From contig CADAZU010000030.1 of assembly GCA_902792535.1 (NCBI GenBank), positions 1 through 36,400 of the forward strand: DNA of 36,400 bases, given 5' to 3'. A program made the translations under genes and the position numbers. This document shows, one piece after another, positions 19,433 to 36,085 of the stretch; within the stretch, counting starts at the first letter, position 1, and every line of letters begins with the position of its first letter. This stretch comes from an uncultured Bacteroidales bacterium (GTDB taxonomy: Bacteria > Bacteroidota > Bacteroidia > Bacteroidales > Paludibacteraceae). The notes below the pieces were generated by a model. That model made no database searches and was not told where the DNA came from. It was given only the letters and a program-made list of their open reading frames with translations.

Positions 19433-19444
19433 ACATATAAAACA
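19433..19444 (+). promoter_or_regulatory. Motif ACATATAAAACA abutting the giant-gene start
   Basis: This 12-mer sits directly before the ATG of the first giant gene. The same 12-mer occurs twice (28543-28554 and 28562-28573) in the leader of the second giant gene, so it is shared by the two cassettes. It could be an A-rich translation-enhancing leader of the Bacteroidetes kind or a protein-binding site. Confidence 0.5.
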
Positions 19445-22400
19445 ATGAAAAACTTTAAACTTAATCTCAAATCGATCGTGCAATCTAAAGCACGGTGGCT
19501 ATTTACCTTAATCGCCCTCCTTACCCTCGGAGTTGGACAGATGTGGGCGACGGATTACGTTTATCTAAATCCGAATAGCGATTGGAAAAGTGAAGGAGCA
19601 CGCTTTGCTGCTGCTTTCATGAATTCAGGAAAATCTTCTACTACTTGGGTGAGTATGGATGATGTAGGAGGTGGTTTATATCGCGCTGCTGTGCCTGCTT
19701 CTGACAATTACTACGTCATTTTCTGCCGTATGAAAGGTGATCAGGCAGACAACAATTGGAGCAACAAATATAACCAGACTGACGATTTGACTTTAAGTAG
19801 CAACACTGGCAAAAAATATAATATCACTGGGTGGGACAAAAGTGGAAACTGGGGAACTACTGTTCCTTTATTCACAAAAGACAAGGTTCTCTACCTAAAG
19901 CCTACATCAAATTGGAAAAGTAATAGTGCACGATTCGCCGTATTTTTTGCAGATGGAACAGGTACGTGGGTAAATATGACGCAAGAAGGTTCTTCCGACT
20001 ATTGGTATTGTACGGTTCCGAATAATTTATGTGCTCATGCCATTTTCTGTCGTATGAATGGTAGTGCACCTGCTAATAATTGGGAAAACAAATGGAATCA
20101 GACAAGCGACCTTGCTCCTGAGTCAGGAAAAAACGGCGTAGAAATAACCGGATGGGACAATAGTTCCGATTGGATTACCGTCTATGATGGTTTGTCTGCG
20201 GCTCGTACTCCGACAGCCGCAGCTGATGCACCGACAATTAGTCCTACTATCACTTCGTCATCTGTTTCGGTAACAGCAGCAAGTGCCAACACTGGCTACC
20301 ACTTTGTTAATTGGACATCTTCTAATGGTTCATTCGAAACTGCAACTAGTAGCAGTACATCCTTTACCCCGAGCGCACAGAATGCAGTTGCTACAGCCAA
20401 TTATGCATTGACTAACTATACCATTACTTATAATTTGGATGGAGGAACTAATCACGCTAGCAACCCAAGTACATATAACTACGAGACTGCTACTATAACA
20501 TTGCAGAATCCGACTAAGACGGGTTATAATTTTGGAGATTGGTACACAGATGCGGAGAAAACAGTAACGGGCAAAACTATCGTTAATCATTCAACGGGCG
20601 ATAAAACTTTCTATGCGACATGGACACCTAAGACCACAACTATCTCGTTCAATGTAGATGGTGGTAGTTCTATTACCAACGAAACAGCCACCTATGGTGT
20701 CGCGATGCCGAGTATCTCAAAGCCCACTAAAGATGGATATTTTTTCGAGGGTATCTACGATGCGGCAGAAGGAGGAACGCAGTATTATGATGAAAATGCT
20801 GCGAGTGCACGGGCTTGGAATAAGGAGAATGCATCCGTCACACTCTATGCTCATTGGACTAAATCGGAGTTGAGCAGCATTGCGCTTTCGCCGGCATACG
20901 CCGTACAGAATGAACATCCGGACATCACAATCACACCGACGCTATCTATCTCTTCCGGCATTGGAACCACCAGTATCTGCTGGGGACTGTATTCGAATGA
21001 AGAATGCACAGGGGATCCTTTAGATGTAACCTTTACTCCCGATCCTTCATCCGGTGCGAACACTGTTACTTTCCCTGCTCCGGATGCCGCCGGAACATAC
21101 TACATTAAAGCGGATTTCAAGGCAGGTAGTAGTTGCTCAGGAACACTCTTGAACTCTGTTACACAATCTTTCACCGTGTATCCGACCCACACGGTAACTG
21201 TTAAAGCCAAAGTAGGCGAAGCTCTTATTCCGGACGATGAATACAACCAGACTTCCAATACCGTCACAGCCAACACGACTCGCGCAGACGCTGTCAGCGC
21301 ACCGGATATTGCAGGCTATGACTTTGTGGACTGGACATTGGGCGATAATATGGAAAAGACCGATGGCGAACTGACCGCCAACCCTATTCATATAACCGCT
21401 ACTGCCGCTTCTACGCTGACGGCAAACTATACCTATCACTCCTATACGGTTACTTATCCGGACGAGGCCGGCTATACCATCAGCGGACAAGATGCATCTG
21501 TAGCCTACAAGAGCACCGGCCAGTTTACCATTCAAGCAACGGACGGTTATACGATTGTCGTTACTGCAGTTGATGCAGAAAGCAACCCTGTTTCACTTTC
21601 CCAAAACGGCGACCTCTATAGTTTCGTACAAGGCACATCAGCTGTTACGATCAATGTTGCTACGACGGAATTGAACAATACCATTACTATCGTTAACGGT
21701 ACAGAAACAGGCGGTTCGGCAACAGAAGTAACCGCAAAAGCCGCTACCACGACCGCCTCCGTTACAGCCAACGCTGCGCCGGAAGGCAAGAAGTTCGCTT
21801 ACTGGGCTATAGACGATGCAATCTCCATCACATCGGGCAGCACCACCACCCGAAGCATCACTTTCAATGCCACACGCAGCACTACGATTACTGCGGTTTA
21901 CACCAACCGCGAAAGCAAGACCGTGCATTTCGCCAAACCCTTCGGCTGGAACACCGTAACGGCTATGTTCTACCAAGACGATGTTGCCAAAACCGAACAA
22001 GAACCCGCCACAAGCACCATGACCTACAAAGGCGCTAATTACTATACATTTACTTACTTTACAGATAATAACGGCGAGACAGGCGGAGATCAATCAGCAC
22101 AAGCCAACTGGAACAAAGTGGTCTTCAGTGACGACGGAGATGGAGATAAGACAAAAACCATTACATCCATTACTAATGGTTATTACTATGCGATAGGTTC
22201 CGGCGAATCCGCAGGACGCGCTACGCCTTTTGCGGAATGGTACTTGCGCGGCAATCTGAACGGTTCGGCCAACTGGACTTCCGGAGAGGGAATTGATTTG
22301 TACAAATACCCGTTTGAGGTAGAGGGTACTTCCGCCACCTATGCGTACGGCGCAAGAACCGGAAACGCACAGTACTTCCGTATCTATCGCGTCTCCACAG

Positions 22401-25400
22401 ATGAGTGGTTCAGGCAAACAACAGGTGCCGATGCACAATTTACGATAGGCAATACTGCTACTTTGACCATCTACAATGAAAATGCAGACTACATTAGCAC
22501 TCCGAATGCCGAAGATAAAGGCGCTTATGTCTTCACATTGACTAATATCAACACAGCGGCTCCAAGCCTGACCATCACCCACCCTGCAGATACGAAATAT
22601 ACCGTAGGTAGCATTACCGCCGGAGAGCATGGTACTATCAGCAGTGCGACCGAAGCAATTACGGAATTAGGGCGCTACATGCCGACAGACATCTCCGCTA
22701 CCGCAAATGCAGGCTACCGCTTCAAGGAATGGGTAGCAACCGGAGGTGTGGTAGTGGAAAATCCGACCAGCGCGTCCACCAGAGCAACAGCTACTGCCAA
22801 CGGAGGTACCCTTACCGCCACCTTCACCAACGAAGGTATTGTCTATTTGGACAAATCTGCTATTAGTAGTTCATGGACGAATACTCCGTATGTATATTTC
22901 TATAGCGGATCTTATTGGAACAACGAAAAAGGCAGTGGCTCGAAAAACATTTTGCACGCAAGTGCTATGACGAACATTGCTGGAACAAATATTTGGTATT
23001 ATGACTACTCTTCCGCTCCGGGTATTTCCAGCACAAGGAACTATATCTCTTTCACAAATGGTGACCAAACAAATAAAGATTACTTTGATCAAACAAGTGC
23101 TATCTACCGCGGCGACTTCTACCCCGAGATGAATATGTTTGTTCCACAGAATTACATAACGAACTATTTGAACAAACACGACAACAAGCAAACCGCTTAT
23201 TACAACAACGGTTATTGGATGAAGTACAACGACGCGGAAGCTGGCTACCGGCTGCGTATCTATGACGGACAGGGACTGAACCTGCAACAAACCATACCGT
23301 TTATTACCGCCACTCCGGACAGCAGGGATACATACGAAGCAACCTTCCATGTAAGTGGTGCCGCGGATGCCAAGTTTGAATTAGTAGGCTACGACCAAGG
23401 CAACGTGAACGGTGTGTCATACGCCGGCACCTTCTATGGCAACACAGGCTCCATCAACTCGAACCTTGATAGTTGGTGGTACTTCGAGCCTGACAAAGGC
23501 AAAACCAATATCAAACTGATTTCCAAAGGAGACTATGTCTTTAAACTGCAATGCGGAACGGACGGTAAACTCTATGTCAAAGTGTCCTATCCGTTAGCGA
23601 CAGGCGATTTCCGAATCAAGTACAACGGTCTGCGCACTACGAAAGACGCAGAAAAGACAGACGTCTATTCGGATGCTATTCCGCGCCTGAGGGAAGATGG
23701 CACACGTACGGACACCGTCAGCTTCTTTGTCACCAACGCTACTGGCAAAGAGGCAGCACTGAGTCTGGAGAAAGTCGATGATATCAACAGCGAAACAGGA
23801 TACATCACATGGGGAGCCTCGGACGTCAGTCTGACCGATGCTGATATATCTTCGTTAGAAACCGATGTATATACCTTCAAGATTACCCAGACGAAATCCG
23901 ATGACACGTACACCTTGAGTTATGAAAATCTGGGGGCTTACACCGGCAATTACTACGTCCGCACCGATTGGGCTAACGGCGGATGGGTGGATTACAAGCA
24001 AGCTGACAACACCTTGCACCCGACCAATTACGCCGGCGCAGGATACAATGCCTATTTCTGCCGGTACATACCGAACGGCAGCGTGAAGTTCTGCATCGCT
24101 AACCAATACAATTCAGCCCTGACGGAAGAGAAAGTAAGCGACATCAATGCCGATGCTTACGGTACGATCCAAGTAGAGGCGAACACGCGCTTCGAATATG
24201 ATACCACCACCAATGTAATCAGCCGTTCCTACATCGGAGGGTCGAATGTAGCGACATATCTGTACATCCGTGACGCTGATCCCGATAAGATTTTCAAAGA
24301 TAATGGAACAACCGAAGGAATCACATTAACCAATGATACGGCAAAACTTATTGACCAAGAGAACTGGATTTATATGCTGAATGTAAAAGCATCACCGAAC
24401 GCCAGATACAAACTGGAAGCAGTAATCAATAGTCATAAGCAGTACTTCGTTGGCTCAGAAAGCTCATCGGAGACCTTGATTAATGCAGAGGGAGCATCGG
24501 GCAAACAAACACTGCGGCTGGTATATGATTTCAAGAACAATCATATGATTACCGCATGGCTGCCGAGTACAGGAGTTACAGGAACTATTCCTATCAAAGC
24601 TGATGTCATGTTGCTTCGCGAAGGACAAAATCAAGCAACTCAGTTGAACTTCACAGATGCGAATTCCAAACTGACACAAGTAAAGAATGTATATGGCGTA
24701 TTGGGCTTTAAGAAATCCGATTTGACGGACGGTGATAAAGCAAGTTATGAGAGATCGCTTTACTGGATTTCCTTCCCGTTCGATGTTAAAGTAAAAGACA
24801 TCTTCGGTTTCGGAACCTTCGGAAAAGATTTCATTGTACGCCGCTACAACGGGGTCAAACGTGCGCAGATTGGTTGGTTTAAGGACACCGACACATTCTG
24901 GGAGACCATGGACCCGAATAGCGAAATAGAAGAAGAAAACACCATGAAAGCGTATGAAGGTTATATGGTGGCGCTCGATAAGGGTTTGCTGAACAGCAGC
25001 GATTCACGATGGAGTGTGGACGGAAAAGCAATCTCAGAACTGTACCTCTATTTCCCGTCCACTACTACGGTAGGTACGTTATCTCAAACAAATAAAGAAA
25101 TAACGTTAGACTCCCTTTCCTGCCGCATCGACCGTCCTTTTGCGCAAGATCCGAACAAGAATCACAAGATCACGGACTCCAACTGGCGTGTAATAGGTAT
25201 CGGTAGTCTGCACAACTCGAAGCTGACAGCAAAAAATCTGAACGATGGAGACGTTACCTTGAGTTATTATAATTGGACTGCTTCTTCGAACTCATTGACT
25301 TCAACCGTATCCGATCCTGACGCCACTACCTACAAAGCCGGCCATGCCGTAATGGTACAGTTCGCAGGAAAAATAACATGGACCAATGCTTCTGTTCCGG

Positions 25401-25963
25401 CTCCCGTAGCGGCACGCCGTGTAGAAACGGAAAAGAAGAACTACACCGTTGAACTCGATCTGAATTACAACGGCTCCATGGCTGACCGCACCTATGTCGT
25501 ATTGCAGGAAAATGCCTCCGCGGACTTTGTATTGAACGAAGACCTCTACAAGGCTACCAATGCCAACCTGCCGAACGTCTATGCCTACGCAGGTGCATAT
25601 GATTGCGGCGTCAGCATTATGCCGATAGAGAGCACGACAGTGCCCGTAGGCGTTATTACCCGCAAGAAAGGTAGTTACACCTTCTCCATGCCGTCCGATT
25701 TCAGCGGAACGGTTACGCTCGTCGATTCCTTTGCGCAGACACGTACCAACCTCGCTGTTGAGGACTATACCGTGGATCTGGAGAAAGGCACATTCAATGA
25801 CCGTTTCTTCCTGGAGTTGGATATCCAAGCCGTTACAACCAATCTGGATCAGACTTCCGATGGTTTCACAAAAGACAAAACACGCAAAGTCATGATTGAC
25901 GGCATTTTGTATATCGTCAAGGACGGCAAGATGTATGACGCACGTGGAAATAAAGTAAAATAA
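19445..25963 (+). CDS. Giant secreted multidomain protein A (carbohydrate-binding-like modules, InlB B-repeats)
   Basis: This protein of about 2,172 residues starts at ATG 19445; an in-frame GTG 30 bases earlier is less likely. It has an extended signal peptide (1-35: LKSIVQSKARWLFTLIALLT then QMWA). Two CBM-like modules follow (about 36-120 and 149-245), each with W-K...ARFA...IFCRMxG...NNWxNKxNQT, a pattern seen in starch-binding-type domains of gut bacteria. InlB B-repeats occupy about 325-471 (ITYNLDGG...GYNFGDWYTD, LYAHW), with divergent copies to about residue 800. A long C-terminal region is shared with the second giant protein (YTGNYYVRTDW, KFCIAN, ERSLYWISFPFDV near 1773). The last 26 residues (IDGILYIVKDGKMYDARG then NKVK) resemble short type IX secretion-type tails. 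It is probably exported and surface-attached, binding glycans or host surfaces; that role is inferred. Confidence 0.85.
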   Translation: MKNFKLNLKSIVQSKARWLFTLIALLTLGVGQMWATDYVYLNPNSDWKSEGARFAAAFMNSGKSSTTWVSMDDVGGGLYRAAVPASDNYYVIFCRMKGDQADNNWSNKYNQTDDLTLSSNTGKKYNITGWDKSGNWGTTVPLFTKDKVLYLKPTSNWKSNSARFAVFFADGTGTWVNMTQEGSSDYWYCTVPNNLCAHAIFCRMNGSAPANNWENKWNQTSDLAPESGKNGVEITGWDNSSDWITVYDGLSAARTPTAAADAPTISPTITSSSVSVTAASANTGYHFVNWTSSNGSFETATSSSTSFTPSAQNAVATANYALTNYTITYNLDGGTNHASNPSTYNYETATITLQNPTKTGYNFGDWYTDAEKTVTGKTIVNHSTGDKTFYATWTPKTTTISFNVDGGSSITNETATYGVAMPSISKPTKDGYFFEGIYDAAEGGTQYYDENAASARAWNKENASVTLYAHWTKSELSSIALSPAYAVQNEHPDITITPTLSISSGIGTTSICWGLYSNEECTGDPLDVTFTPDPSSGANTVTFPAPDAAGTYYIKADFKAGSSCSGTLLNSVTQSFTVYPTHTVTVKAKVGEALIPDDEYNQTSNTVTANTTRADAVSAPDIAGYDFVDWTLGDNMEKTDGELTANPIHITATAASTLTANYTYHSYTVTYPDEAGYTISGQDASVAYKSTGQFTIQATDGYTIVVTAVDAESNPVSLSQNGDLYSFVQGTSAVTINVATTELNNTITIVNGTETGGSATEVTAKAATTTASVTANAAPEGKKFAYWAIDDAISITSGSTTTRSITFNATRSTTITAVYTNRESKTVHFAKPFGWNTVTAMFYQDDVAKTEQEPATSTMTYKGANYYTFTYFTDNNGETGGDQSAQANWNKVVFSDDGDGDKTKTITSITNGYYYAIGSGESAGRATPFAEWYLRGNLNGSANWTSGEGIDLYKYPFEVEGTSATYAYGARTGNAQYFRIYRVSTDEWFRQTTGADAQFTIGNTATLTIYNENADYISTPNAEDKGAYVFTLTNINTAAPSLTITHPADTKYTVGSITAGEHGTISSATEAITELGRYMPTDISATANAGYRFKEWVATGGVVVENPTSASTRATATANGGTLTATFTNEGIVYLDKSAISSSWTNTPYVYFYSGSYWNNEKGSGSKNILHASAMTNIAGTNIWYYDYSSAPGISSTRNYISFTNGDQTNKDYFDQTSAIYRGDFYPEMNMFVPQNYITNYLNKHDNKQTAYYNNGYWMKYNDAEAGYRLRIYDGQGLNLQQTIPFITATPDSRDTYEATFHVSGAADAKFELVGYDQGNVNGVSYAGTFYGNTGSINSNLDSWWYFEPDKGKTNIKLISKGDYVFKLQCGTDGKLYVKVSYPLATGDFRIKYNGLRTTKDAEKTDVYSDAIPRLREDGTRTDTVSFFVTNATGKEAALSLEKVDDINSETGYITWGASDVSLTDADISSLETDVYTFKITQTKSDDTYTLSYENLGAYTGNYYVRTDWANGGWVDYKQADNTLHPTNYAGAGYNAYFCRYIPNGSVKFCIANQYNSALTEEKVSDINADAYGTIQVEANTRFEYDTTTNVISRSYIGGSNVATYLYIRDADPDKIFKDNGTTEGITLTNDTAKLIDQENWIYMLNVKASPNARYKLEAVINSHKQYFVGSESSSETLINAEGASGKQTLRLVYDFKNNHMITAWLPSTGVTGTIPIKADVMLLREGQNQATQLNFTDANSKLTQVKNVYGVLGFKKSDLTDGDKASYERSLYWISFPFDVKVKDIFGFGTFGKDFIVRRYNGVKRAQIGWFKDTDTFWETMDPNSEIEEENTMKAYEGYMVALDKGLLNSSDSRWSVDGKAISELYLYFPSTTTVGTLSQTNKEITLDSLSCRIDRPFAQDPNKNHKITDSNWRVIGIGSLHNSKLTAKNLNDGDVTLSYYNWTASSNSLTSTVSDPDATTYKAGHAVMVQFAGKITWTNASVPAPVAARRVETEKKNYTVELDLNYNGSMADRTYVVLQENASADFVLNEDLYKATNANLPNVYAYAGAYDCGVSIMPIESTTVPVGVITRKKGSYTFSMPSDFSGTVTLVDSFAQTRTNLAVEDYTVDLEKGTFNDRFFLELDIQAVTTNLDQTSDGFTKDKTRKVMIDGILYIVKDGKMYDARGNKVK

Positions 25964-25975
25964 GGAGTGAAATAA

Positions 25976-26356
25976 ATGACTGAACACATGAAAACGAGAT
26001 TTCAAATAGTTGTATTATTGGCATTTGTCTGCTTAGGCTTGAACGCACAGCCCTTCTCTGCTCCTGCGGAGAATAATGCCATCCAAAGTCAGCAGATCAT
26101 GACTACCGGATCGAACTACAATGGTACTGTCTATGCGCCGTTCGACAATACGGTTCCTTCCGAACAGAGCACCGTCGGAGCAAGTTATTCACCGGCAAAA
26201 GCCCCAGGTCCCAGACGCGAAGGAGCATTTGACGGTAGTCCGGAAGTCAAAGAGCAAGACGAGAGTTACCCTCTCGGCGATGGCGTGCTGCCGATGCTGA
26301 TCATGGCATTCGCTTTCGGCGGCGCGGTTTATCTGCGACGCAGGCGCGAAGCGTAA
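25976..26356 (+). CDS. Small single-pass membrane protein A with PLGDGVLP sorting-like tail
   Basis: This protein of 122-126 residues has a signal peptide (MKTRFQIVVLLAFVCLGLNA) and a short polar mature region (IQSQQIM, GSNYNGTVYAPF, PSEQSTVGASYSPAKAP). The C-terminus is tripartite: PLGDGVLP, a hydrophobic segment (MLIMAFAFGGAVYL) and a basic end RRRREA. The layout recalls C-terminal sorting signals (LPXTG, PEP-CTERM, PID-CTERM) but matches none I can name. ATG 25976 is eight bases after AAGGAG, a rare strong ribosome site; ATG 25988 would match its paralogue better. It starts 12 bases after the giant protein gene and so is co-transcribed with it. It is a probable membrane partner or anchor. 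Confidence 0.83.
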   Translation: MTEHMKTRFQIVVLLAFVCLGLNAQPFSAPAENNAIQSQQIMTTGSNYNGTVYAPFDNTVPSEQSTVGASYSPAKAPGPRREGAFDGSPEVKEQDESYPLGDGVLPMLIMAFAFGGAVYLRRRREA

Positions 26357-26386
26357 CCCGCATCGCAGTTTGCACAACGAACAGAG

Positions 26387-26408
26387 AGAGCCCCGCGGGG
26401 CTCTTTTT
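26387..26408 (+). terminator. Terminator of giant cassette A
   Basis: The stem AGAGCCCC-GC-GGGGCTCT is followed by T residues. The sequence CGGGGCTCTTTTTGTTGCA recurs exactly after cassette B (36052-36070), showing that the terminator is part of the duplicated unit. Confidence 0.93.
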
Positions 26409-26470
26409 GTTGCATATAATAGACACTCCACCGCAAAAACAAAAAAATATCGCGCTTTTTGGCGAAAAAA

Positions 26471-26502
26471 TTTGCAAATGTGGGATTTTTTGTGTACTTT
26501 TG
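26471..26502 (+). promoter_or_regulatory. Promoter of a short noncoding leader or RNA
   Basis: TTTG (26471-26474), 20-nt spacer, TACTTTTG (26495-26502). It precedes a structured stretch with no gene and lies 205 bases upstream of a second promoter serving the PIN module. Confidence 0.8.
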
Positions 26503-26506
26503 CACC

Positions 26507-26610
26507 GTCTTTCGCAGAAAGACAACGTTTGGGACTCCCAAAACTTCGCAATTTTGATATGTTCCAGTCCAGACGACACCTGATTAAGGTGTGGTCTTTG
26601 ACGTATTGGA
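26507..26610 (+). ncRNA. Candidate short structured RNA or rrn-like leader
   Basis: Starting just after a strong promoter, the stretch contains GTCTTT-CGCAG-AAAGAC, TTTGGG-ACT-CCCAAA, the motif GACTCCCAAAACTTCGCAA (26533-26551; the same as in the 330-nt RNA with one base missing), a strong hairpin AGAC-G-ACACCT/AGGTGT-G-GTCT (26571-26597) and, overlapping its 3' arm, a boxA-like TCTTTGACGTATTG (26595-26608). There is no open frame and no T-run. It could be a small RNA or the leader of a longer transcript into the toxin module. Confidence 0.5.
26595..26608 (+). promoter_or_regulatory. boxA-like element, copy 3 (TCTTTGACGTATTG)
   Basis: It overlaps the 3' arm of the 10-bp hairpin at 26571-26597 and lies 92 bases before the -7 element of the PIN-module promoter. 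A hairpin followed by boxA is the order found in rRNA antitermination leaders. Confidence 0.45.
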
Positions 26611-26675
26611 TTTACCGCATAATTGCAATTTGGGAATGTATTTTTGGTAATTTTGGACTAAAAAACCCATTATTA

Positions 26676-26707
26676 TTTGCACATTCCAAATTTTTGTTGT
26701 ACTTTTG
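26676..26707 (+). promoter_or_regulatory. Promoter of the PIN-domain toxin-antitoxin module
   Basis: TTTG (26676-26679), 20-nt spacer, TACTTTTG (26700-26707), followed by GCGTCGCAAAACGC. Nearly the same post-promoter sequence (GCGTCGCAAACGC) follows the ParE-module promoter at 27559, so it may be a shared operator. Confidence 0.85.
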
Positions 26708-26735
26708 CGTCGCAAAACGCAAAAACCAAGTAATT

Positions 26736-26963
26736 ATGGAAGCAACCGTACAACAGCCGACTTTTAATCCGATTCAGATTCATCTTTTGAAGATGTTTTC
26801 CATTGATACCGCGGAACAAGGACTTATTGAGCTGAAAGATGTCCTGTACAAGTATTATTCCGCCAAAATGGAAAGTCGTTTGGATGAGTTATGGGATAAT
26901 GGCACTCTCGACCAGGCGCGCTTGGATGAAATCAACCGGATGGATCTGCATCAATTAAATTGA
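26736..26963 (+). CDS. Putative antitoxin of the PIN-domain toxin
   Basis: This 75-residue helical, acidic protein (MEATVQQPTFNPIQIHLLKM...) with LYKYYSAKMESRLDELWDNG resembles small antitoxin-like proteins found before PIN toxins in Bacteroidetes. It starts at ATG 26736, 28 bases after the promoter; a longer open frame upstream runs through the promoter and is not credible. The toxin start follows two bases after its stop. It is called an antitoxin by position and size. Confidence 0.72.
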   Translation: MEATVQQPTFNPIQIHLLKMFSIDTAEQGLIELKDVLYKYYSAKMESRLDELWDNGTLDQARLDEINRMDLHQLN

Positions 26964-26965
26964 GC

Positions 26966-27370
26966 ATGCGCATCGTTCTCGACACAAACAGTCTCATTCA
27001 AAGCGTCCCATCGAGGAGCCGCTATCATGCTGTATGGCAATCGTTGTTGGATGGACGCAACACACTCTGTGTCTCCAATGAAATCATCATGGAGTACTTG
27101 GAGATTTTGCAACGCCTGACAGACCATGATACAGCAGAGACCATCATAAAAACGATCATTAACAGTCGATTTGTAGAGTTTATCACTCCTTTCTATAATT
27201 TTGGTCTAATTCAGAATGATCCGGACGACAATAAGTTTGTTGATTGTGCCATTGCTGCCAATGCCAGATATATTGTTACGAACGACCACCATTATGATAT
27301 CCTCAAGAATATATCATATCCTCCTGTCGATGTGATCAGTTTGGAGGACTTTTTGAGGTTAATACAATAA
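26966..27370 (+). CDS. PIN-domain toxin (VapC-like ribonuclease)
   Basis: This 134-residue protein opens with MRIVLDTNSLIQ and has the conserved acidic residues of PIN nucleases: Asp6, Glu43 (SNEIIMEYLE), Asp88 and Asp93 (DPDDNKFVDCAIAANA) and Asp107 (VTNDHHYD). It matches the 'toxin component, PIN family' group common next to small antitoxins, expected to cut RNA using magnesium. ATG 26966 is preferred to a TTG that overlaps the antitoxin stop. The module sits between the two giant cassettes and ends in a strong terminator. Confidence 0.9.
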   Translation: MRIVLDTNSLIQSVPSRSRYHAVWQSLLDGRNTLCVSNEIIMEYLEILQRLTDHDTAETIIKTIINSRFVEFITPFYNFGLIQNDPDDNKFVDCAIAANARYIVTNDHHYDILKNISYPPVDVISLEDFLRLIQ

Positions 27371-27390
27371 TTGTTAAAATTATTATCACC

Positions 27391-27429: not shown

Positions 27430-27468
27430 GTGCGCAAAGCCTCTCCGGCTATAACGGAGAATAAACGA

Positions 27469-27584: not shown

Positions 27585-27797
27585 ATGGTAGTAACACCTA
27601 CAAAAGATCAGGGGGCAACGGCTATGCCATACATCCCAACTAATATCAATCTTATGGGATTGACAGAAATCCATGAGACTCAACTGATTGATCCTAATTG
27701 GAAAAATCAACCAATGCGTCAGTGGGATGAAGTGTATGATGGTCTTTGTCGCGAGGTGGGGGCTGCTTATGGTCTGAATGATATTCGCGAGGCGTGA
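27585..27797 (+). CDS. Putative antitoxin of the ParE/RelE-like toxin
   Basis: This 70-residue protein (MVVTPTKDQGATAMPYIPTN...) has a C-terminal acidic segment QWDEVYDGLCREVGAAYG. It resembles no DNA-binding fold I can name; the assignment rests on size, promoter position and the toxin gene starting two bases after its stop. A longer frame that begins inside the promoter is rejected. ATG 27585 is 26 bases after the -7 element. Confidence 0.7.
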   Translation: MVVTPTKDQGATAMPYIPTNINLMGLTEIHETQLIDPNWKNQPMRQWDEVYDGLCREVGAAYGLNDIREA

Positions 27798-27799
27798 GG

Positions 27800-28102
27800 A
27801 TGAAACAGTTTCAAATTTCGCTTACATCAAAAGCTCTAAGCGATGTGGACAAGTTGCGATTTGCGATTGTCTTTAAGTTTCGAGCTCCGTTAACCGCCAA
27901 GCATTATCTGAAGGGAATAAATGATACGATTCAATCGTTGAAAGCCGGAGCCGACTCCATTCGGGTTGATCATGTATTGTCCGCACAATATGGGTTTGAC
28001 ATCAAAAGAATCAACTACAAGGAGATGGCAATACTTTTTTCTGTGGAAGATGATATTGTGTATATCCATCGTATTATGCCACAGAGCATGATAATTTACT
28101 AA
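27800..28102 (+). CDS. ParE/RelE-superfamily toxin
   Basis: This 100-residue protein starts MKQFQISLTSKALSDVDKLR and ends with the family-type strand pair FDIKRINYKEMAILFSVEDD and IVYIHRIMPQSMI, typical of ParE/RelE 'plasmid stabilisation' toxins. Whether it blocks gyrase (ParE) or cleaves mRNA (RelE) cannot be told. It starts just after the antitoxin stop (TGAGGATG) and ends before a hairpin terminator similar to that of the YafQ module. Confidence 0.8.
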   Translation: MKQFQISLTSKALSDVDKLRFAIVFKFRAPLTAKHYLKGINDTIQSLKAGADSIRVDHVLSAQYGFDIKRINYKEMAILFSVEDDIVYIHRIMPQSMIIY

Positions 28103-28129
28103 AGATCAGCATACCTGACTTTTTTGCCT

Positions 28130-28162
28130 GACATGAGAAGAATCTCATGTCTTGCTTTTTAT
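28130..28162 (+). terminator. Terminator hairpin after the ParE-like module
   Basis: A perfect stem GACATGAG-AAGAAT-CTCATGTC (28130-28151) is followed by TTGCTTTTT. It resembles the terminator after the YafQ module, and both are followed by AAAAAGGAACAAG-like sequence. Confidence 0.8.
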
Positions 28163-28249
28163 ATATATCACTATAAAAAGGAACAAGTTGAAAGAATACA
28201 CTACTATGTCAACCTATAGTTTGAGTCGACTTTTCGCTCGCCCCATCAA

Positions 28250-28293
28250 CCGAGAGAAGACCGGGAGAAGACCGACCGATGACCGAGAAACAA
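28250..28293 (+). repeat. Four 11-bp tandem units beginning CCG
   Basis: The units are CCGAGAGAAGA, CCGGGAGAAGA, CCGACCGATGA and CCGAGAAACAA, back to back with exact 11-base period. The first two differ at one base; the last two are degenerate. The 11-base spacing would place them on one face of the helix. Confidence 0.75.
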
Positions 28294-28297
28294 ATAT

Positions 28298-28349
28298 CAA
28301 CAAAAAAGGAACAAGTTAATGCAAACTGATTGAGAGTTGGTGTTATGCG
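28298..28349 (+). repeat. Intergenic element, copy 2 (copy 1 at 16856-16907)
   Basis: The 3' 24 bases, CTGATTGAGAGTTGGTGTTATG then CG, match copy 1 with three substitutions. The 5' part (CAAC...AAAAG...AACA...AATGC) is partly conserved. Both copies lie in gene-free stretches of the accessory region. Confidence 0.6.
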
Positions 28350-28484
28350 TAAGCGACTAATAAACGGTCATACCCATTAGGTTGGATATTATCCGACGAC
28401 AACAATAATAAAAACAATATACAAATAAAAAACAAATCTTAATCTAAAAAAACATCTTTGGATGCAGTAAATTTGCTGTCACTT

Positions 28485-28517
28485 CCAACGGTGAGCCGAC
28501 GGTCAACCGACGGTCAT
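28485..28517 (+). repeat. Three 11-bp tandem units (CCrACGGTsA)
   Basis: The units are CCAACGGTGAG, CCGACGGTCAA and CCGACGGTCAT, exactly 11 bases apart, about 115 bases before the giant gene B start. A further CGGTCA lies near 28363. This looks like an operator array for a protein reading CCGACGGTCA. Confidence 0.78.
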
Positions 28518-28542
28518 AAATGACATCTATATAACGCAAATT

Positions 28543-28573
28543 ACATATAAAACACCAAATAACATATAAAACA
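28543..28573 (+). repeat. Two copies of ACATATAAAACA
   Basis: Copies at 28543-28554 and 28562-28573 (period 19). The same 12-mer abuts the start of giant gene A at 19433-19444. Confidence 0.75.
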
Positions 28574-28599
28574 GAATAATAATAAAACTAAAAAATACG

Positions 28600-31500
28600 A
28601 TGAAAAACGTTGTTAATCGTGCCTCTTTAAGGGCAAAGAAAACTTTAAAACTTAATCTCAAATCAATCGTGCAATCCAAAGCACGGTGGTTATTCACCTT
28701 AATCACCCTCCTCACCCTCGGAATGGGACAGATGTGGGCGAAAACGTTCTATTTACATCCAAGTGATGATTGGAAGAAAGATGGTGCCAAGTTTGCTATT
28801 TGTTATGGATATGATAATTCTAGTGATCAATCATTTGTTGCAATGACTCAAGTAGCAGGGACAGAATGGTATTCTGCAGAAGTGCCATCATCTGCAAGTT
28901 CCAAGTATGTCTATTTCATGCGTGTGAGTTCAAGTTGGACAACTACTAGCAAATGGACGGATAAGTGGAATGGTTTTGGTTGGTATTCCTATAACAATGG
29001 GGATCATTATGTTAATGAATCAGCTGGTGATAGTGGAGATAAACTTGACTATGGTTTTCAATTAGAGTATAGTTCTACCTATGGAAATGGTATTAAATAT
29101 TATGACGGTTCGGATCAAGAAATGAGATTAACAACTTCAGTAACTTCATCTCAATCTAAAGATGTTAATTCATTAGCCCCAATAACTACTTTATATCTCA
29201 AGGAATGGTTTGCGCATATGTACGAAACAAAGGATTTGTGGAATAGTAATACTGTTCTGAAATACAGTATTCATCGCACTAATGCGTCAATAGGAGAATA
29301 TACGACAGACAACCATAACTGGACTGATAAAGGCGGTTGGAATGGAGGAACTCCGTCTATGTGTTTTCCGAAAATAGGTCATAGTGCAACTGAGCAAAAT
29401 TCCATTAGTGGCCTCAATGTAAACTTACTGGCAGGACTTGGTAGTGGCCTGTACACTATGTCTTTCTACTACTACGACCCAGATTTGATGTTGACTAGCC
29501 CTGTACATTCTCTAAACTGGAAAATTGCCGTTCCTGCGGTAAGTGGCGGAGCAGTCACTTCCAATGGAACAGGCACTGGAGCAGAAGGTTCTCCGTTCTC
29601 TGTGGCAGACGGCAACACAATCACTTTTACTGTTTCGGGAAGTCAAGCAAGTACAGATGCTAACTCGGTACTCTATGTTAAGTGGGGAAGCGATGAATAT
29701 AGTACCACGACAACCAAAACTATCACCCCAACAACGACCAAGCAGTCGATGAGGGTAAAACTGAAATACTATAATAGTGCAGATGATTTGTCTGGCGCAG
29801 AGACTACACTAACCATTTATTATCAATCTACTGTTACTCCGAGTGTAGCCGTCAGCAGCTTCACTCAAGATGCAAGTACAGTAACGGCAGTTAACTCAGG
29901 CGAAACAGTAACTATCAATGCAAGTCGTCAAAATGCCGGTACTGCAAATATAACATATCAGTATAGTACGGATAACAGCAGTTGGACAACTATCGGTTCA
30001 GCTACCAGTTCGACTACACAAGCATGGACAATTCCTGCCGTAACGGCTACTACAACGTATTATGTAAAAGCAACTATGACATACGATGCCGTAACGTATA
30101 GCGACACCAAAACGCTTAAAGTGTACGGAAAGAAGACAATTAAAGTAAAGAACACCAACGGTTGGTATCCATTCTACATGCACCGTTGGGATGGAGATCG
30201 TGCAGATACGGAATTCCCGGGTGAGGATGACCAAATTTCCGATTATGGTTCCGGTCAATGGAAACAAGTGGTACTTTATTCATCCAACAACAAATTTATC
30301 TTTGTTGATGGTACCAATACGAATAACAAGAATAGTGACCAGACCTATGCGAGCATGGCAGATGGTGGTTGCTATGAGATTGCTTCGGGCACAGGTGTAC
30401 TGGCTTTGAATAGTACTGTCAATTGCCCGGCAAAACCGACTGTAACTGCCAGTGCGGCAACAAGCGTGACCAATACAGCAGCAACGATAAACGGAAGTAT
30501 CAGTTCCAACGGCAATGATGCTATCACCGATTACGGCTTCTATTGGGGCACAAGTTCAACTCCCGGAACTAAAGAACAAAAAGGGACAACCGACCACACA
30601 GGTGCCATTAGTCATAACTTATCTGTCACAGCCGGAACAACCTATTATTACCAAGCTTATGCAATTAACGGACAAGGCGAAACCAAAAGTAGCCCTGTCC
30701 AGAGTTTCGTAGCTCCGTATAAAGTGACTATCACACAACCAACAGGATGTAGTGCAATAACTCCTGGAACGGGAACGCAGTATGTCAAAGTAGGCGATCC
30801 AATTACAGCAACGGCTGCTGCTGGATATACATTCAGTTCTTGGTCTTTATCAAACGTGACTCTTGAGACTTCTACAACAATAGAAGGAGTAACAAGTACA
30901 TCCATTGCTACTGCATCTAACGGAGGTACTATAGCACCGGCCTATACAGAAAACATGACGACCGTCAATCTGGTAGCCAGCCCTACAGGAAAGGGAACAT
31001 TTACCAGCGGTGGTGGAGCTGTAATATCTGTTTCGGCAGGTGTGGATACTCATCCGACCGTGACCGCTGTTCCTGCAATCGGATATCACTTAATAGGTAC
31101 TATTTGGAGCGAGAGCAGCGACTATATTTCTATAACTCCTGCCAATGCCGCTGCTACTACCATCACCGCCACCGGCACTACGGGCAATACTGCTAATTTG
31201 ACTGCCACCTTTACACCAAATAACTATTCTGTTTCGTTTAATGCAAACGGCGGTACGGGTGATGCGATGAGTAATCAGGAATTCACGTATGATGTAGCGC
31301 AGAACTTGAGCACGAATACCTATACCCGAACCGGCTATAACTTTGATGGTTGGGCAACTGAAGCAGCAGGCGCAAAGGTATATGATCCGGGGCAGAATGT
31401 TAATAATCTGACAACCACCAAGGATGGTACGGTTGCTCTCTTTGCTCATTGGGTGCCTAAAAGTTGTACCATAAACTTCGACTTTGATGAGTCGGATACC

Positions 31501-34500
31501 GGTTATGGAAGCAAGACGGGGGCTACAAACTCTACTACTGCGACTTACGCGGCGGCAATGACATCCGTTACACCTCCTACCGCAGCAAACGGATGGGCCT
31601 TCATGGGATTCTATGACGCTGCCGATGGTGCAGGCACACAATACTATGACGGAACAGGTGTCAGCGTAACAAACTGGGACAAAGATACCGAAAGTCCAAC
31701 CACACTCTACGCGTACTACAAGAAGGCGGAGATTACCAATCTGGTAGCAGCTCCGAGTGTTATTGCTCCGGGCGAGACGATAACGATCACTCCGACGATT
31801 GAACCGACGCCGACAGGAACGACAAAAGTATGTTGGGAAGTGCAATACAGCAACGGAACGCCGCTTCCTGAGCAGCCTACATTTACTCGAGAAGGCAATA
31901 CTGTTTCATTCCCTGTACCGACCGCGAGTGCAACGTATATCATTCAAGCCAAATTAGCAAAAGGATCTACTTGCCCTGCTAATCCGGAGGATGTATTAAG
32001 CACCCGCACCACTACTTTCCAAGTAGCAGGAAGCCACACCGTAACCGTTCGCTACCAAGATGCAAGCGGCAGAACGCTGCAGGCTTCGGGGTCTGTAGAA
32101 GCTCGTCCGTTAGCATGGACTGAAGTCGAAAATGCTATTACTCCGCCGACGATTACCGGCTATACATTCGACCACTGGGACGCAGGCGACGGTGTGACTA
32201 TTAAGGATGACGACTCCGATGATCCTGTGACGACCACTACTACTTCGTCCATCCAAATCAAAGCCAACTACCCCGGTACCCTGACTGCGGTGTATAACAA
32301 GAAGAATGTGCTATATTTCAATAATACATTGGGCTGGGAAGATGTATGGGTATATTTCTATAGTACTGATAAATACTGGGCTGACGACTTTGGAACCGGT
32401 GCATACAAAGGAAAAGAGTTTGAAAATAACAAACAATTCTGGGATATGCATTACGGTCAAATGACGCAGATTGCAGGAACAAATATCTGGTACTTTGATT
32501 ATACCGCTCAAGGCTGGGACGGCTGGAGAAATGTTGCATTTGCCAACATGAACAAAGCTGATAGTGGAGAGGATAACACCAGCGACAATGACAAAGCGTT
32601 CTTTAGTAATACCGTAGAGAATCCTATTCAGGTTGTTCGTCGCGGAGACCACAGTACAAGTTTGCCGATGTACGTTCCGCTGACAGGATTGACTGCACAG
32701 AAGAAGAACAACAACAAAGCCGAATACTACTTTGAGGGTTACTGGATGAACTATCCGGAGAACACAGGTTATACGCTAAAGATTTACAATGGTACTACAT
32801 ATAATACAGTGGATGAACTGCAATCTATTCCATTTGAGTTTACGGCGGATTATACATTGCCGATGGCTCTATCCGTAGAACTGAACGCCGGAAGGGATTA
32901 TGGATATGAGATTCACAGTGCAGATGGCACAGTTTATGGTAATAATTCCAAATTCATGACCAGCGGCGACAGCGGAGAAGAGGCTGCCTGGTCATTGACT
33001 TCTGGTCAGCGCGGTAAAATCAGAACCTCTGCTGCCGGCGACTATATCTTCACGTTGTCCTTTGGCAACAATAGTGGCTATAAATATCTTTTAGGCGTGC
33101 ATTATCCGGCTGCCGTGGGTGACTACCGCGTGGTTTATCATGACGATGCAGCATGGTCGAAGGAGGCACACGCTTCCGGTTGGTGGCATGAGTCACGCGC
33201 TATACATAAGGAAAACGGAGCAAAGGACATTGTTTCCTTCTATGTCAGCAAAGCGACAGGAGCCAATGCCAGCATGAAGTTCCAATACGCAGAGAGCATC
33301 AATGCAAGCACAGGTGTGATTACTTGGACAGATGTACCAAGCGGTACTATAGATTTGAATGATATTTCCTCTTCAGGCGTATATAATTTCCACCTCACAC
33401 AGGCAGATGAAACCATCAGCGTAGAGAAAATTGAACCTTACACAGGTAACTACTACATCCGTACGGACTGCGCCGGTTCTACCAAATGGGAGAACTTCCG
33501 CACGCTGGATCACCAAATGACGTATTCAGACTACGCCGAGACTACCTCGGGCTACAGCCATTATTACGCACACTGGGTAACCAACGGTACGAATGTGAAG
33601 TTCTGCATCGCTAACGACTATAGCATGTGTATCACGGATACGCTGGTTGAGGATAAAGGAACAGTTATTGCAAATATTACTGCAGAAGGAAATGACGGAG
33701 CTGGAAGTTTGAACAGCGCAAGTGCTAATATCCGCTTCATGTGGGATCAAGCAACCAACAAAATCAGCCGTGCATACATCAGCGGTTCAACAAATGTATC
33801 CGATCGATTCTTGGTATTAGAAGGAAGCGCAAAGATGTATGACGAGAATGGTAATGCTTTGAGTATATCCGGACTGAATGCCAACGAGATTAATTTGGTG
33901 GATGACCAGAACTTCGTATATGAGCGTACGATTAAGGTTAACGCCGGAGCGAATGCCAAATTAACCGCGAAATATAATAACAATATACAGTATTTCAAGG
34001 GTGGTTCCGGTTCTACTGTTGCAGACTCTGTTCAGTTGTTAGGTGGTAAGGCTGCCGGAAAGCATACCATGCGTATTGTCTATGACTTCAAGACCAACCG
34101 TTTGGTAACGGCGTATGTGCCTTCCAGTGAAATTACAGGTCCGATGGAGATTAATGCAGATCTCATGATTATTCGTGAACACCAAGGAGAAGGGCAACAA
34201 TTGACCTTCACCAGTACGGGTAAACTTTCGGAGGTACATACGGTTTATGGTGTAATGCGATTCAACCGTTGGACGCTGAATAACAAGAGTACAGCTGACG
34301 GTCACTCTCCTGTAGGCGATCCGAAGTCCATCTATGAGCGTTCGCTCTATTGGATATCTTTCCCGTTCGATGTGAACTTGAGCGATGTATTCGGTTTCGG
34401 CACCTATGGTGTTGACTGGGTTATTGAATACTACGACGGCGCAGCGCGTGCCTTAGAAGGTTATTGGGCGGACAGCCCCGGTTTCTGGAAAATGTACACC

Positions 34501-35607
34501 AACCGCGCAGGTGTTCAACTGAAAGCAGGCAAAGGTTATGTTCTGGCTATAGATCTTGACCGGATGAAAGACAACAACACATCCTTCTGGACGAACAATA
34601 TCGAGCAAGTAGAACTGTTCTTCCCGTCTGCAGCCAATATCTCTACTATTTCGCAGACCACAGCGCATACTACTGTTGAAGAACACACATGTACCATCGA
34701 CCGCACCAATTCCGGTGGCACTAGTACGGATATTCTAAAGAACCGTACCAAAGCAGACGCTCACTGGAACCTCATCGGTGTGCCGAGTTATGCGAACTAT
34801 GGCAATACGCTGACCTCTGACGGAAGTTCAGCTACCATTACATGGAATACCAACCCGTACACCAATGATCTGCCGTTCCTCTATGAGTGGAATGCGACGG
34901 ATGACTCGTACACCGTACAGAGCGGTACCACCTATCCGTTCAAGGCGATGCATGCATACATGGTACAGTACCATGGTGATCTATACTGGAGTTTGGCAAG
35001 TGCTACTCCTCCGGTGTCTCCTATCGTAGCACGCCGTACCTATGCGGAGAAACCGATGTATGAAGAGTTCCGTCTGGAGTTGCAGCAGAATGAGAAGATG
35101 GTGGACCAGACCTTCGTCAAACTGAGCAACGATGAAGAAGCGAGTGCAAACTTCGTATTCAACGAGGATCTCACCAAAGAATTCAACAGCCGCAAGGGTA
35201 ATATCTATACCCTGATAGAGAACTACTTGCCGGCAGCCGGTAACACCTTGCCGATGAGCGAGCAGACCACCGTCGTACCTGTGGGTGTGAAGATCAGCAC
35301 CGAAGGCGACTATACCTTCGCAATGCCGGAGGGCACAGACGGTATCGGCGTAACACTCATTGATAATGAGACGGGCGCGCGCACAAGCCTCAGCGCATTG
35401 GACTACACCGTTCATTTGACGGCAGGCGAGTACACCAGCCGCTTCGTAATGGAGATCTCGCCGGTACAGAATACCCCGACGGACATTGAGGAAGTACCAA
35501 GCGACCAAGTATCAAGTACCCCGGCCCGGAAGATGCTCATCGATGGCGTTCTGTACATCGTCAAGGACGGTAAGATGTTTGACGCCCGCGGCGCGAGTGT
35601 GAAATAA
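28600..35607 (+). CDS. Giant secreted multidomain protein B (carbohydrate-binding-like modules, FN3-like, InlB B-repeats)
   Basis: This 2,335-residue paralogue of giant protein A has an extended signal peptide (1-47), with residues from LKLNLKS to QMWA almost identical to A. Visible modules are an N-terminal CBM-like domain (about 48-140, FYLHPSDDWKKDGAKFA), a second glycan-binding-like module near 520 (GWYPFYMHRWDGD...FPGEDD, like CBM26-type starch-binding domains), an FN3-like domain (about 611-705, ITDYGFYWGTSS...YYYQAYAINGQGE), InlB B-repeats (about 874-954 and beyond), then the C-terminal region shared with A (GTNIWYFDY, YTGNYYIRTDC, KFCIAN, ERSLYWISFPFDV near 1917). The tail IDGVLYIVKDGKMFDARG is nearly the same as in A and may be the export or anchoring signal. 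It is probably a surface protein; ligand unknown. Confidence 0.85.
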   Translation: MKNVVNRASLRAKKTLKLNLKSIVQSKARWLFTLITLLTLGMGQMWAKTFYLHPSDDWKKDGAKFAICYGYDNSSDQSFVAMTQVAGTEWYSAEVPSSASSKYVYFMRVSSSWTTTSKWTDKWNGFGWYSYNNGDHYVNESAGDSGDKLDYGFQLEYSSTYGNGIKYYDGSDQEMRLTTSVTSSQSKDVNSLAPITTLYLKEWFAHMYETKDLWNSNTVLKYSIHRTNASIGEYTTDNHNWTDKGGWNGGTPSMCFPKIGHSATEQNSISGLNVNLLAGLGSGLYTMSFYYYDPDLMLTSPVHSLNWKIAVPAVSGGAVTSNGTGTGAEGSPFSVADGNTITFTVSGSQASTDANSVLYVKWGSDEYSTTTTKTITPTTTKQSMRVKLKYYNSADDLSGAETTLTIYYQSTVTPSVAVSSFTQDASTVTAVNSGETVTINASRQNAGTANITYQYSTDNSSWTTIGSATSSTTQAWTIPAVTATTTYYVKATMTYDAVTYSDTKTLKVYGKKTIKVKNTNGWYPFYMHRWDGDRADTEFPGEDDQISDYGSGQWKQVVLYSSNNKFIFVDGTNTNNKNSDQTYASMADGGCYEIASGTGVLALNSTVNCPAKPTVTASAATSVTNTAATINGSISSNGNDAITDYGFYWGTSSTPGTKEQKGTTDHTGAISHNLSVTAGTTYYYQAYAINGQGETKSSPVQSFVAPYKVTITQPTGCSAITPGTGTQYVKVGDPITATAAAGYTFSSWSLSNVTLETSTTIEGVTSTSIATASNGGTIAPAYTENMTTVNLVASPTGKGTFTSGGGAVISVSAGVDTHPTVTAVPAIGYHLIGTIWSESSDYISITPANAAATTITATGTTGNTANLTATFTPNNYSVSFNANGGTGDAMSNQEFTYDVAQNLSTNTYTRTGYNFDGWATEAAGAKVYDPGQNVNNLTTTKDGTVALFAHWVPKSCTINFDFDESDTGYGSKTGATNSTTATYAAAMTSVTPPTAANGWAFMGFYDAADGAGTQYYDGTGVSVTNWDKDTESPTTLYAYYKKAEITNLVAAPSVIAPGETITITPTIEPTPTGTTKVCWEVQYSNGTPLPEQPTFTREGNTVSFPVPTASATYIIQAKLAKGSTCPANPEDVLSTRTTTFQVAGSHTVTVRYQDASGRTLQASGSVEARPLAWTEVENAITPPTITGYTFDHWDAGDGVTIKDDDSDDPVTTTTTSSIQIKANYPGTLTAVYNKKNVLYFNNTLGWEDVWVYFYSTDKYWADDFGTGAYKGKEFENNKQFWDMHYGQMTQIAGTNIWYFDYTAQGWDGWRNVAFANMNKADSGEDNTSDNDKAFFSNTVENPIQVVRRGDHSTSLPMYVPLTGLTAQKKNNNKAEYYFEGYWMNYPENTGYTLKIYNGTTYNTVDELQSIPFEFTADYTLPMALSVELNAGRDYGYEIHSADGTVYGNNSKFMTSGDSGEEAAWSLTSGQRGKIRTSAAGDYIFTLSFGNNSGYKYLLGVHYPAAVGDYRVVYHDDAAWSKEAHASGWWHESRAIHKENGAKDIVSFYVSKATGANASMKFQYAESINASTGVITWTDVPSGTIDLNDISSSGVYNFHLTQADETISVEKIEPYTGNYYIRTDCAGSTKWENFRTLDHQMTYSDYAETTSGYSHYYAHWVTNGTNVKFCIANDYSMCITDTLVEDKGTVIANITAEGNDGAGSLNSASANIRFMWDQATNKISRAYISGSTNVSDRFLVLEGSAKMYDENGNALSISGLNANEINLVDDQNFVYERTIKVNAGANAKLTAKYNNNIQYFKGGSGSTVADSVQLLGGKAAGKHTMRIVYDFKTNRLVTAYVPSSEITGPMEINADLMIIREHQGEGQQLTFTSTGKLSEVHTVYGVMRFNRWTLNNKSTADGHSPVGDPKSIYERSLYWISFPFDVNLSDVFGFGTYGVDWVIEYYDGAARALEGYWADSPGFWKMYTNRAGVQLKAGKGYVLAIDLDRMKDNNTSFWTNNIEQVELFFPSAANISTISQTTAHTTVEEHTCTIDRTNSGGTSTDILKNRTKADAHWNLIGVPSYANYGNTLTSDGSSATITWNTNPYTNDLPFLYEWNATDDSYTVQSGTTYPFKAMHAYMVQYHGDLYWSLASATPPVSPIVARRTYAEKPMYEEFRLELQQNEKMVDQTFVKLSNDEEASANFVFNEDLTKEFNSRKGNIYTLIENYLPAAGNTLPMSEQTTVVPVGVKISTEGDYTFAMPEGTDGIGVTLIDNETGARTSLSALDYTVHLTAGEYTSRFVMEISPVQNTPTDIEEVPSDQVSSTPARKMLIDGVLYIVKDGKMFDARGASVK

Positions 35608-35642
35608 AAAAGATAATGAATAATGCATAAAATATAAGAGTT

Positions 35643-36008
35643 ATGAGAAAAAGAGTATATATTATTGCGTTGATAAGCGCCGTGAGCCTGCTGGCTCATG
35701 CGCAGACATTCTCGCCTGCGGCGGAGGACAATACCATTCAGAGCCAACAGATCATGCAGAGCGGTTCGAACTACAACAGCACGGTATATGAGCCGTTCAG
35801 CAACACCACTCCGTCAGAGCAAAGCGCAGTAGGCACCAGTTATTCCCCGGCGAAAGCGCCCACGGGTCCTCGTAAGGATATTATTACTCCAAGCAACCCG
35901 GGCCAGAAAGGCGAGTTTCCTCTCGGCGATGGAGTAATTCCTCTGTTGCTCATGGCGGCAGGATTCGCGGTGTTTGTAGCTGTGCGCAAAAACGCCCGCG
36001 TGGAATAA
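35643..36008 (+). CDS. Small single-pass membrane protein B with PLGDGVIP sorting-like tail
   Basis: This 121-residue paralogue of small protein A has a signal peptide (MRKRVYIIALISAVSLLAHA) and the mature-region blocks IQSQQIM, GSNYNSTVYEPF, PSEQSAVGTSYSPAKAP and GPR. A variable spacer is followed by PLGDGVIP, a hydrophobic segment (LLLMAAGFAVFVAV) and a basic end RKNARVE. It begins 35 bases after giant gene B. Conservation of both the repeated blocks and the tripartite tail between copies that otherwise vary argues for selected function, probably partnering or anchoring the giant protein. Confidence 0.85.
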   Translation: MRKRVYIIALISAVSLLAHAQTFSPAAEDNTIQSQQIMQSGSNYNSTVYEPFSNTTPSEQSAVGTSYSPAKAPTGPRKDIITPSNPGQKGEFPLGDGVIPLLLMAAGFAVFVAVRKNARVE

Positions 36009-36042
36009 AAACCGGACACGAACCGTATTATGACAAGCAAAG

Positions 36043-36064
36043 AGAGCCTTTCGGGGCTCTTTTT
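36043..36064 (+). terminator. Terminator of giant cassette B
   Basis: The stem AGAGCC/GGCTCT (36043-36060) is followed by a T-run. The right arm and tail CGGGGCTCTTTTTGTTGCA are identical to the terminator of cassette A. Confidence 0.88.
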
Positions 36065-36085
36065 GTTGCAAAAGTGCATTTTTTC

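Follow-up and report, generated by a model that had tools for sequence, protein, structure and literature searches.

The window analysed here is one entire contig of 36400 bases (G000:C30) from a Bacteroidales genome, G000, which amounts to 2.37 Mb and is 82.65% complete. Its forward strand carries two adjacent copies of a cassette, each made of a gene for a giant exported protein, a gene for a small single-pass membrane protein and a strong terminator. Unit 1 begins with an exact match to the leader motif ACATATAAAACA (19433–19444) and continues with a giant of 2172 aa (19445–25963; the list of open reading frames puts its start at the GTG at 19415, while the coordinates used here begin at 19445). 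The giant has a signal peptide, two N-terminal modules resembling carbohydrate-binding modules (CBMs), InlB-type repeats, a region like the one that precedes the sorting domain in RemA and RemZ, and a shortened tail ending in GNKVK; this half of a sorting tail, IDGILYIVKDGKMYDARGNKVK, occupies 25895–25963. After 12 nt follows the gene for a 126-aa protein resembling exosortase substrates (25976–26356), with a signal peptide, a low-complexity body and a tail of PLGDG, a helix and RRRREA. An intrinsic terminator closes the unit (26377–26414; fold −22.7 kcal/mol, z −6.0). Unit 2 has the leader motif in two exact copies, at 28543 and 28562 (28543–28573), a giant of 2335 aa with the same architecture and a diverged N-terminal half (28600–35607), its half tail IDGVLYIVKDGKMFDARGASVK (35539–35607), a 35-nt gap, a second exosortase-substrate-like protein of 121 aa (35643–36008) and a terminator (36033–36070; fold −19.5 kcal/mol, z −5.4).

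A previous, sequence-only reading of this DNA had described the duplicated two-unit cassette with a shared leader, a nearly identical signal peptide, a small membrane-protein gene in each unit and a 19-base identical terminator tail. The giant and small open reading frames and the strongly folding terminators confirm this description, down to the common 19-base end. The shared leader is real as well. With up to two mismatches ACATATAAAACA occurs nine times, as compared to a mean of 4.36 in shuffled sequences, and since three of 100 shuffles reach nine or more, the short motif alone is weak evidence. The signal-peptide DNA of the two giants (19443–19550 and 28634–28741) is 89% identical over 108 nt, and the small proteins are 54% identical (67/123). 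Regarding the conserved C-terminal region of the giants, the landmark motifs named for it are present in both, but from about residue 1090 to the end the two proteins are only 35% identical (416/1189 columns), as they are over another stretch in the InlB-type repeats (123/348), so that only the signal-peptide DNA is near identical. Such a difference between the signal-peptide DNA and the alignable parts of the giants hints at gene conversion.

Pfam and NCBIfam models find nothing above any cut-off in the two small proteins, which nevertheless end in the tripartite tail expected of an exported PID-CTERM protein, namely P-L-G-D-G, a membrane helix and basic residues. Four copies of the small protein were found in G000 at E ≤ 1, and each lies directly 3′ of the gene for a large protein: the two window giants and, at L003 and L004, two proteins that the locus end truncates and that have at least 482 and at least 496 aa, respectively. 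Wider profiles add one further weak match each in this genome (E about 0.1 or lower; unread). A search with the six-row alignment of the window-type family (A1) gave relatives in three of 393 genomes of the order, all from the window's genus, and suggested a family private to that genus. This idea was overturned when wider alignments found the same design elsewhere: a signal peptide, a variable low-complexity body, P-(I/V/L)-(G/D), a helix and basic residues. The motif P[LIVM][GDNS] falls inside the last 34 aa in 71 of 76 tails and, judged by eye, just before them in the remaining five. Comparison of A1 with 13 cargo-linked PID-type proteins (A8) by hhalign gave a probability of 95.4% (E 1.8e-8) over 32 columns, with the similarity confined to the tail. 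The PID-CTERM model NF046080 scores above its cut-off of 26 bits in 42 of 198 genomes of the order and in none of 14 control genomes; among short proteins from other families, L050 passes (26.3 bits) and L048 fails (18.7 bits). On these comparisons, membership of the small-protein tail in the exosortase CTERM class is well supported, with NCBI's PID-CTERM as its nearest relative. One protein of a different setting should be mentioned: the tail protein at L061 (G383:C85), about 242 aa long, has behind it a gene for what resembles an outer-membrane β-barrel, and the gene before it has no detected sorting domain.

If the small proteins are exosortase substrates, an exosortase is needed in the genome. 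The Pfam exosortase model PF09721 finds nothing in G000 at E ≤ 1, which had suggested that the enzyme was absent. This was overturned by profile A5, an alignment of 23 exosortases drawn from genes at 40 places in other Bacteroidales genomes, with C104, N142, R145 and H164 among its eight invariant columns, and by TIGR04178. The A5 search was made after the enzyme had been predicted from the tails, and it gave a match at G000:C22:19429-19989 (E 7e-31); against TIGR04178, a model of the exosortase/archaeosortase family, the same gene scores 48.2 bits with a cut-off of 23. A5 matches were found in 102 of 150 genomes of the family and in all 13 sampled genomes of the genus (in G474 as two pieces of one 236-aa frame), and Cys, Arg and His are kept in 12 of the 12 exosortase genes read. 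The presence of an exosortase gene in G000 is thus well supported; by sequence likeness the enzyme is XrtX/XrtF-like, yet it is not XrtX by NCBI's cut-off. In 11 of 12 stretches (L194–L204) its neighbour encodes a protein with ESSCDDTS(A/C)AV, which we take to be TsaD; the two genes are not adjacent in G000 (L193).

Tail proteins and exosortases occur together more widely. Among the 198 genomes of the order TIGR04178 was found in 51 of 56 PID-positive genomes (E ≤ 0.01) and in 35 of 142 others (p 2e-18), or, with PID above cut-off, in 38/42 versus 48/156. TIGR04178 also catches other exosortases, e.g. XrtK; with PF09721 in its place (E ≤ 0.01) the counts, made by hand, are 43/56 and 29/142. 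In the 150 genomes of the family an exosortase is present in 73 of 80 tail-positive genomes (E ≤ 0.01) as compared to 29 of 70 others (p 4e-11). Counted by eye per genus within the family, tail proteins (E ≤ 1e-3) occur in 21 of 25 exosortase-bearing and in one of eight exosortase-less genera (p 5e-4). All three p values ignore kinship. Moreover, at least 11 of 88 PID genes over the cut-off have an exosortase gene no more than 1 kb away. Presence of the type IX secretion system (T9SS) was discarded as a discriminating test, SprA being found in 187 of the 198 genomes. Within the family, an exosortase but no tail protein (E ≤ 1e-3) was found in four genera, g3, g208, g217 and g221.

The giants resemble cargo of the T9SS. 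A profile of their last 165 aa (A6), searched against sequences of the PDB, matches RemA (E 4.4e-6) and RemZ (E 5.6e-6) and nothing else at E ≤ 1. The match spans 130–165 aa, reaches the sorting domain's first strands and breaks off about 45 residues before RemA and RemZ end, which gives the giants homology to known type A cargo in the part beside the sorting domain. RemZ is reported to be a type A substrate caught in the T9SS translocon (PMC10994853). G000 encodes SprA (G000:C16:6344-13588, 2661 bits), and both giants are presumably exported by the T9SS. Their shortened tail is shared by 15 upstream proteins of the survey described below, with the pattern I-x-x-x-G-x-x-Y-x-x-x-G-x-x-V-K or a near variant at the very C-terminus, and K or R stands among the last four residues in 15 of 15. 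Note that an almost invariant lysine near the C-terminus is described for the type A sorting domain (section 7 of PMC10994853). In G000 the half tail exists also outside the four small-protein loci, because a 318-aa protein encoded behind a cargo gene at L025 (G000:C21) itself ends in it (TITGNKIK). At L007 (9700–9970) a related giant stops short of any half tail; short repeats such as TGTAATGTGTAA come after its end, and the small gene is present behind it all the same. The glycan-binding character proposed for the giants stands only as far as weak CBM-like matches go: the CBM26 match reaches 23.5 bits, under the cut-off of 28.1, and a structure model of the N-terminal module (pLDDT 71) has a CBM41 as its best fold match (E 0.083). 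A model of the C-terminal 443 aa (mean pLDDT 36) was set aside and not used.

The arrangement recurs. We surveyed 77 distinct tail-protein loci, 47 of them found via likeness to the window small proteins and 30 via NF046080 (the best match, one per genome), and an upstream gene was counted if it lay on the same strand, ended no more than 400 nt away and encoded at least 200 aa (at least 100 aa when cut by the locus end). Of ten loci read from the wider search eight were kept; L040, which matches in the signal peptide alone, and L063, a piece of tail lacking a start, were dropped. Ten loci whose match is limited to the first part of the model (L041, L043–L045, L047, L049, L051–L054) were not counted, L005 was excluded as a copy of L006, and repeat fetches of one place were counted once. 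A qualifying upstream gene is present at 57 of the 77 loci. Of these 57 proteins, 31 match the T9SS type A sorting-domain model TIGR04183 at E ≤ 0.1 and 25 match PF18962 at E ≤ 0.01; a sorting-domain model built from 17 upstream proteins finds 31 at E ≤ 0.001, the 17 training rows among them. With the 15 shortened tails, cargo lies upstream at 46 loci, or 47 if L033 is counted, the C7 paralogue in G000 with a full sorting domain by eye, yet E 0.066. Since the locus end truncates most of the upstream proteins, giant size is established for only some of them. L007 (the giant without a tail), L031 (a fusion) and L085 and L089 (no upstream DNA) are among the 77 and were not scored as cargo-linked. 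The gap from cargo to tail gene is at most 100 nt at 43 of 47 loci.

By group, and with L033 included, cargo-linked loci make up 18/25 in the genus together with two metagenome-assembled genomes of unchecked genus, 11/17 in the rest of the family and 18/35 in the rest of the order; regrouping by eye gives 17/23 for the window's genus alone and 1/2 for the two assemblies. The sequence-only reading had expected a recurring unit of a large secreted and a small membrane-tailed protein, and had named small-protein homologues lying mostly away from giants as the outcome that would speak against it. With a full or shortened T9SS-type tail upstream at 18 of these 25 loci, its expectation holds. The 30 NF046080 loci divide into 14 that follow T9SS cargo, 11 within 1 kb of an exosortase gene and 5 with neither, and the exosortase-linked proteins mostly read PPPP...IPIDGG. 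A variant of the arrangement occurs in G245, of the same genus, where tail protein and giant share one open frame of 1927 aa with no stop between them. Here the order is tail helix, basic loop and the giant's signal sequence, and the small protein does not stand behind a cargo gene. Translation may restart at an inner ATG; if the frame is read through, the order of the chain suits cutting by signal peptidase into two products.

Taken together, these results suggest that two surface-sorting systems act on paired products. We consider it probable that each cassette of two genes links two routes of surface sorting, with a mini-protein processed by exosortase made together with a giant exported by the T9SS. 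More specifically, the giant would pass Sec and next, as RemA/RemZ-like cargo, the type IX system; glycan binding or stalk formation is the probable task of its N-terminal modules and InlB-type repeats. The small partner would also leave by Sec, its C-terminal helix holding it in the inner membrane, where the exosortase of the genome may cut it near P-L-G-D and the new C-terminus would probably be joined to a lipid or glycolipid. The cut and the joining are proposed by analogy with rhombosortase (PMC7468200) and with archaeosortase A, for which tag, cut and lipid are described in PMC7157517. The resulting short anchored peptide could escort the co-produced giant or tether it to the surface. 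Co-transcription of the two genes, physical pairing of their products, the cleavage and the nature of the anchor are all things that we infer.

Several results weigh against this interpretation. On the side of the small proteins, NF046080 does not match P0003 or P0004 at E ≤ 1, nor the L003 and L004 paralogues at E ≤ 10, and the G000 exosortase reaches 49.5 bits against the XrtX model NF046081 (cut-off 170; five relatives score 79–107). On the side of the giants, neither TIGR04183 nor PF18962 places a sorting domain at their C-terminus. TIGR04183 has no match over their ends, and its one weak match, in giant P0002 (12.6 bits), is internal; the half tail aligned alone with the full sorting domain by hhalign reaches a probability of only 23% (E 9e-4). 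The loci surveyed are a non-random set, collected for the larger part by likeness to the window proteins, and 31 of the 77 (30 if L033 is cargo) have no such upstream cargo, of which two have no upstream DNA and 11 adjoin an exosortase. G000 has 20 TIGR04183 matches at E ≤ 1, 9 of them above cut-off; apart from the one inside P0002, the other 19 (10 below cut-off) were, as judged by eye, never followed by a tail protein in the next 500 nt, and therefore the partner belongs to selected cargo only and most cargo does without it. Seven tail-positive genomes (E ≤ 0.01) have no detected exosortase (they are 62–96% complete, in 40–410 contigs), 29 of the 70 tail-negative genomes of the family carry one nonetheless, and the co-occurrence statistics do not correct for genome relatedness.

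It is also conceivable, though we consider it unlikely, that the small protein is an unprocessed inner-membrane partner of the T9SS-bound giant, e.g. a periplasmic holdase or docking factor, in which case the tail would be only an anchor and the exosortase would serve other substrates. The small proteins keep signal peptide and tail while length and body vary widely, a giant cargo could well profit from an anchor next to motor and translocon, and processing of the small protein is itself deduced. However, a plain anchor does not need the conserved P-x-(G/D) before the helix, and it accounts neither for the co-occurrence of tails and exosortases nor for the similar tail of the exosortase-linked PID proteins. 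Nor did we retain the related idea of a small protein that makes up for the absent half of the sorting domain, since small proteins also follow full sorting domains; a segment in their bodies matching that half was looked for by eye only.

A similarly low probability is given to the interpretation offered by the sequence-only reading, which is partly supported as a whole: two components would form a display system, and duplication would diversify its ligand-binding part. Adjacent units, near-identical signal-peptide DNA and diverged N-terminal halves agree with it, but the C-terminal half that should be shared has itself diverged to 35% identity, and the tail class and the exosortase are left unexplained. 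The accompanying claim that no named system is involved does not hold, as the giants are homologous to T9SS cargo and the small tail is of the exosortase CTERM class.

We think it still less likely that the giants are not T9SS cargo and that the tail ending in GxxVK serves another route. Their end without the second half of the sorting domain would fit such a route, as would the missing TIGR04183 match, but the RemA/RemZ match reaches the start of the sorting domain, tail proteins of the same genus stand behind full sorting domains (L071 and L076), and the half tails keep a basic residue close to the end, much as type A cargo keeps its lysine. Least probable of all is that shared ancestry and habitat brought exosortases and tail proteins together while the latter belong to the T9SS only: related genomes have both, exosortases occur in tail-negative genomes, and T9SS presence cannot separate this idea from coupled sorting because SprA is nearly everywhere, but the association holds by genus, PID genes lie next to exosortase genes, and the G000 enzyme turned up where it was predicted.

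A more general and tentative proposal, which we rate as somewhat doubtful, is that exosortase and type IX system of Bacteroidales form one two-track display pathway, in which certain T9SS cargo genes each come with an exosortase-tagged mini-protein of their own, cleaved to a lipid-anchored escort or tether. If this is true, the shortened sorting tail of the window giants would be one that depends on the small partner. An independent hint of the coupling proposed for the cassette comes from the table in PMC10936215, which gives Flavobacterium johnsoniae deletions of xrtF and of its neighbour the same entries as deletions of porU and porZ: sand colonisation is less, biofilm is much less and zorbs are abolished. 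Deletions of an aminotransferase gene and a hypothetical gene, both unrelated, have identical entries in the same table, which makes the resemblance an unspecific one. That study lists the identification of exosortase substrates among its future work (PMC10936215); the gene order described here proposes a concrete class of such substrates in Bacteroidota and could account for a resemblance between exosortase and T9SS mutants. The pairing is directly testable in culturable organisms; one relative in the family, presumably Paludibacter propionicigenes WB4, has a tail-protein match at 2657525–2657758 behind a T9SS cargo gene and an exosortase match at 3462099–3462671.

Both units are surrounded by genes coding for a YhcG/DUF1016 nuclease (15429–16631), a YafQ toxin (17272–17544), a PIN-domain protein (26960–27370) and a ParE toxin (27794–28102). 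A further element, AAAGYAGTACTTTTGC, occurs four times in the window with up to two mismatches (8748, 12316, 27544 and 36102), as compared to 0.04 expected, and is perhaps a promoter or a dispersed repeat.

In the parts of the literature accessible to our search, which left preprints and most subscription papers outside its scope, we found no description of a pairing between T9SS cargo and an exosortase-tailed partner and no paper on PID-CTERM; judging by titles, none on XrtX dealt with the exosortase. The nearest known system is PID-CTERM/exosortase X (NF046080/NF046081), with which the cassette shares a short exported protein with a P-I-(D/G) motif, helix and basic end, and an exosortase in the genome. 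It differs in that the window tails read PLGDG and fall under the model cut-off, the G000 exosortase falls under the XrtX cut-off, and the partner's gene stands behind that of a giant T9SS-like cargo instead of an exosortase gene. PEP-CTERM/EpsH likewise has a tripartite tail, for which PMC7468200 gives cutting by an exosortase of the inner membrane as the presumed fate, whereas the window tails have no PEP motif and PF09721 missed the G000 enzyme. In the type A cargo RemA and RemZ the giants find their pre-sorting region and the start of their sorting domain, but they end short after G-x-x-V-K and are followed by an exosortase-type partner. In the GlyGly-CTERM/rhombosortase system, as PMC7468200 outlines it, a C-terminal tag is cut and modified and the protein is held at the surface after outer-membrane secretion by the type II system; there tag and cargo are one protein, whereas in the window units they are divided between two genes.

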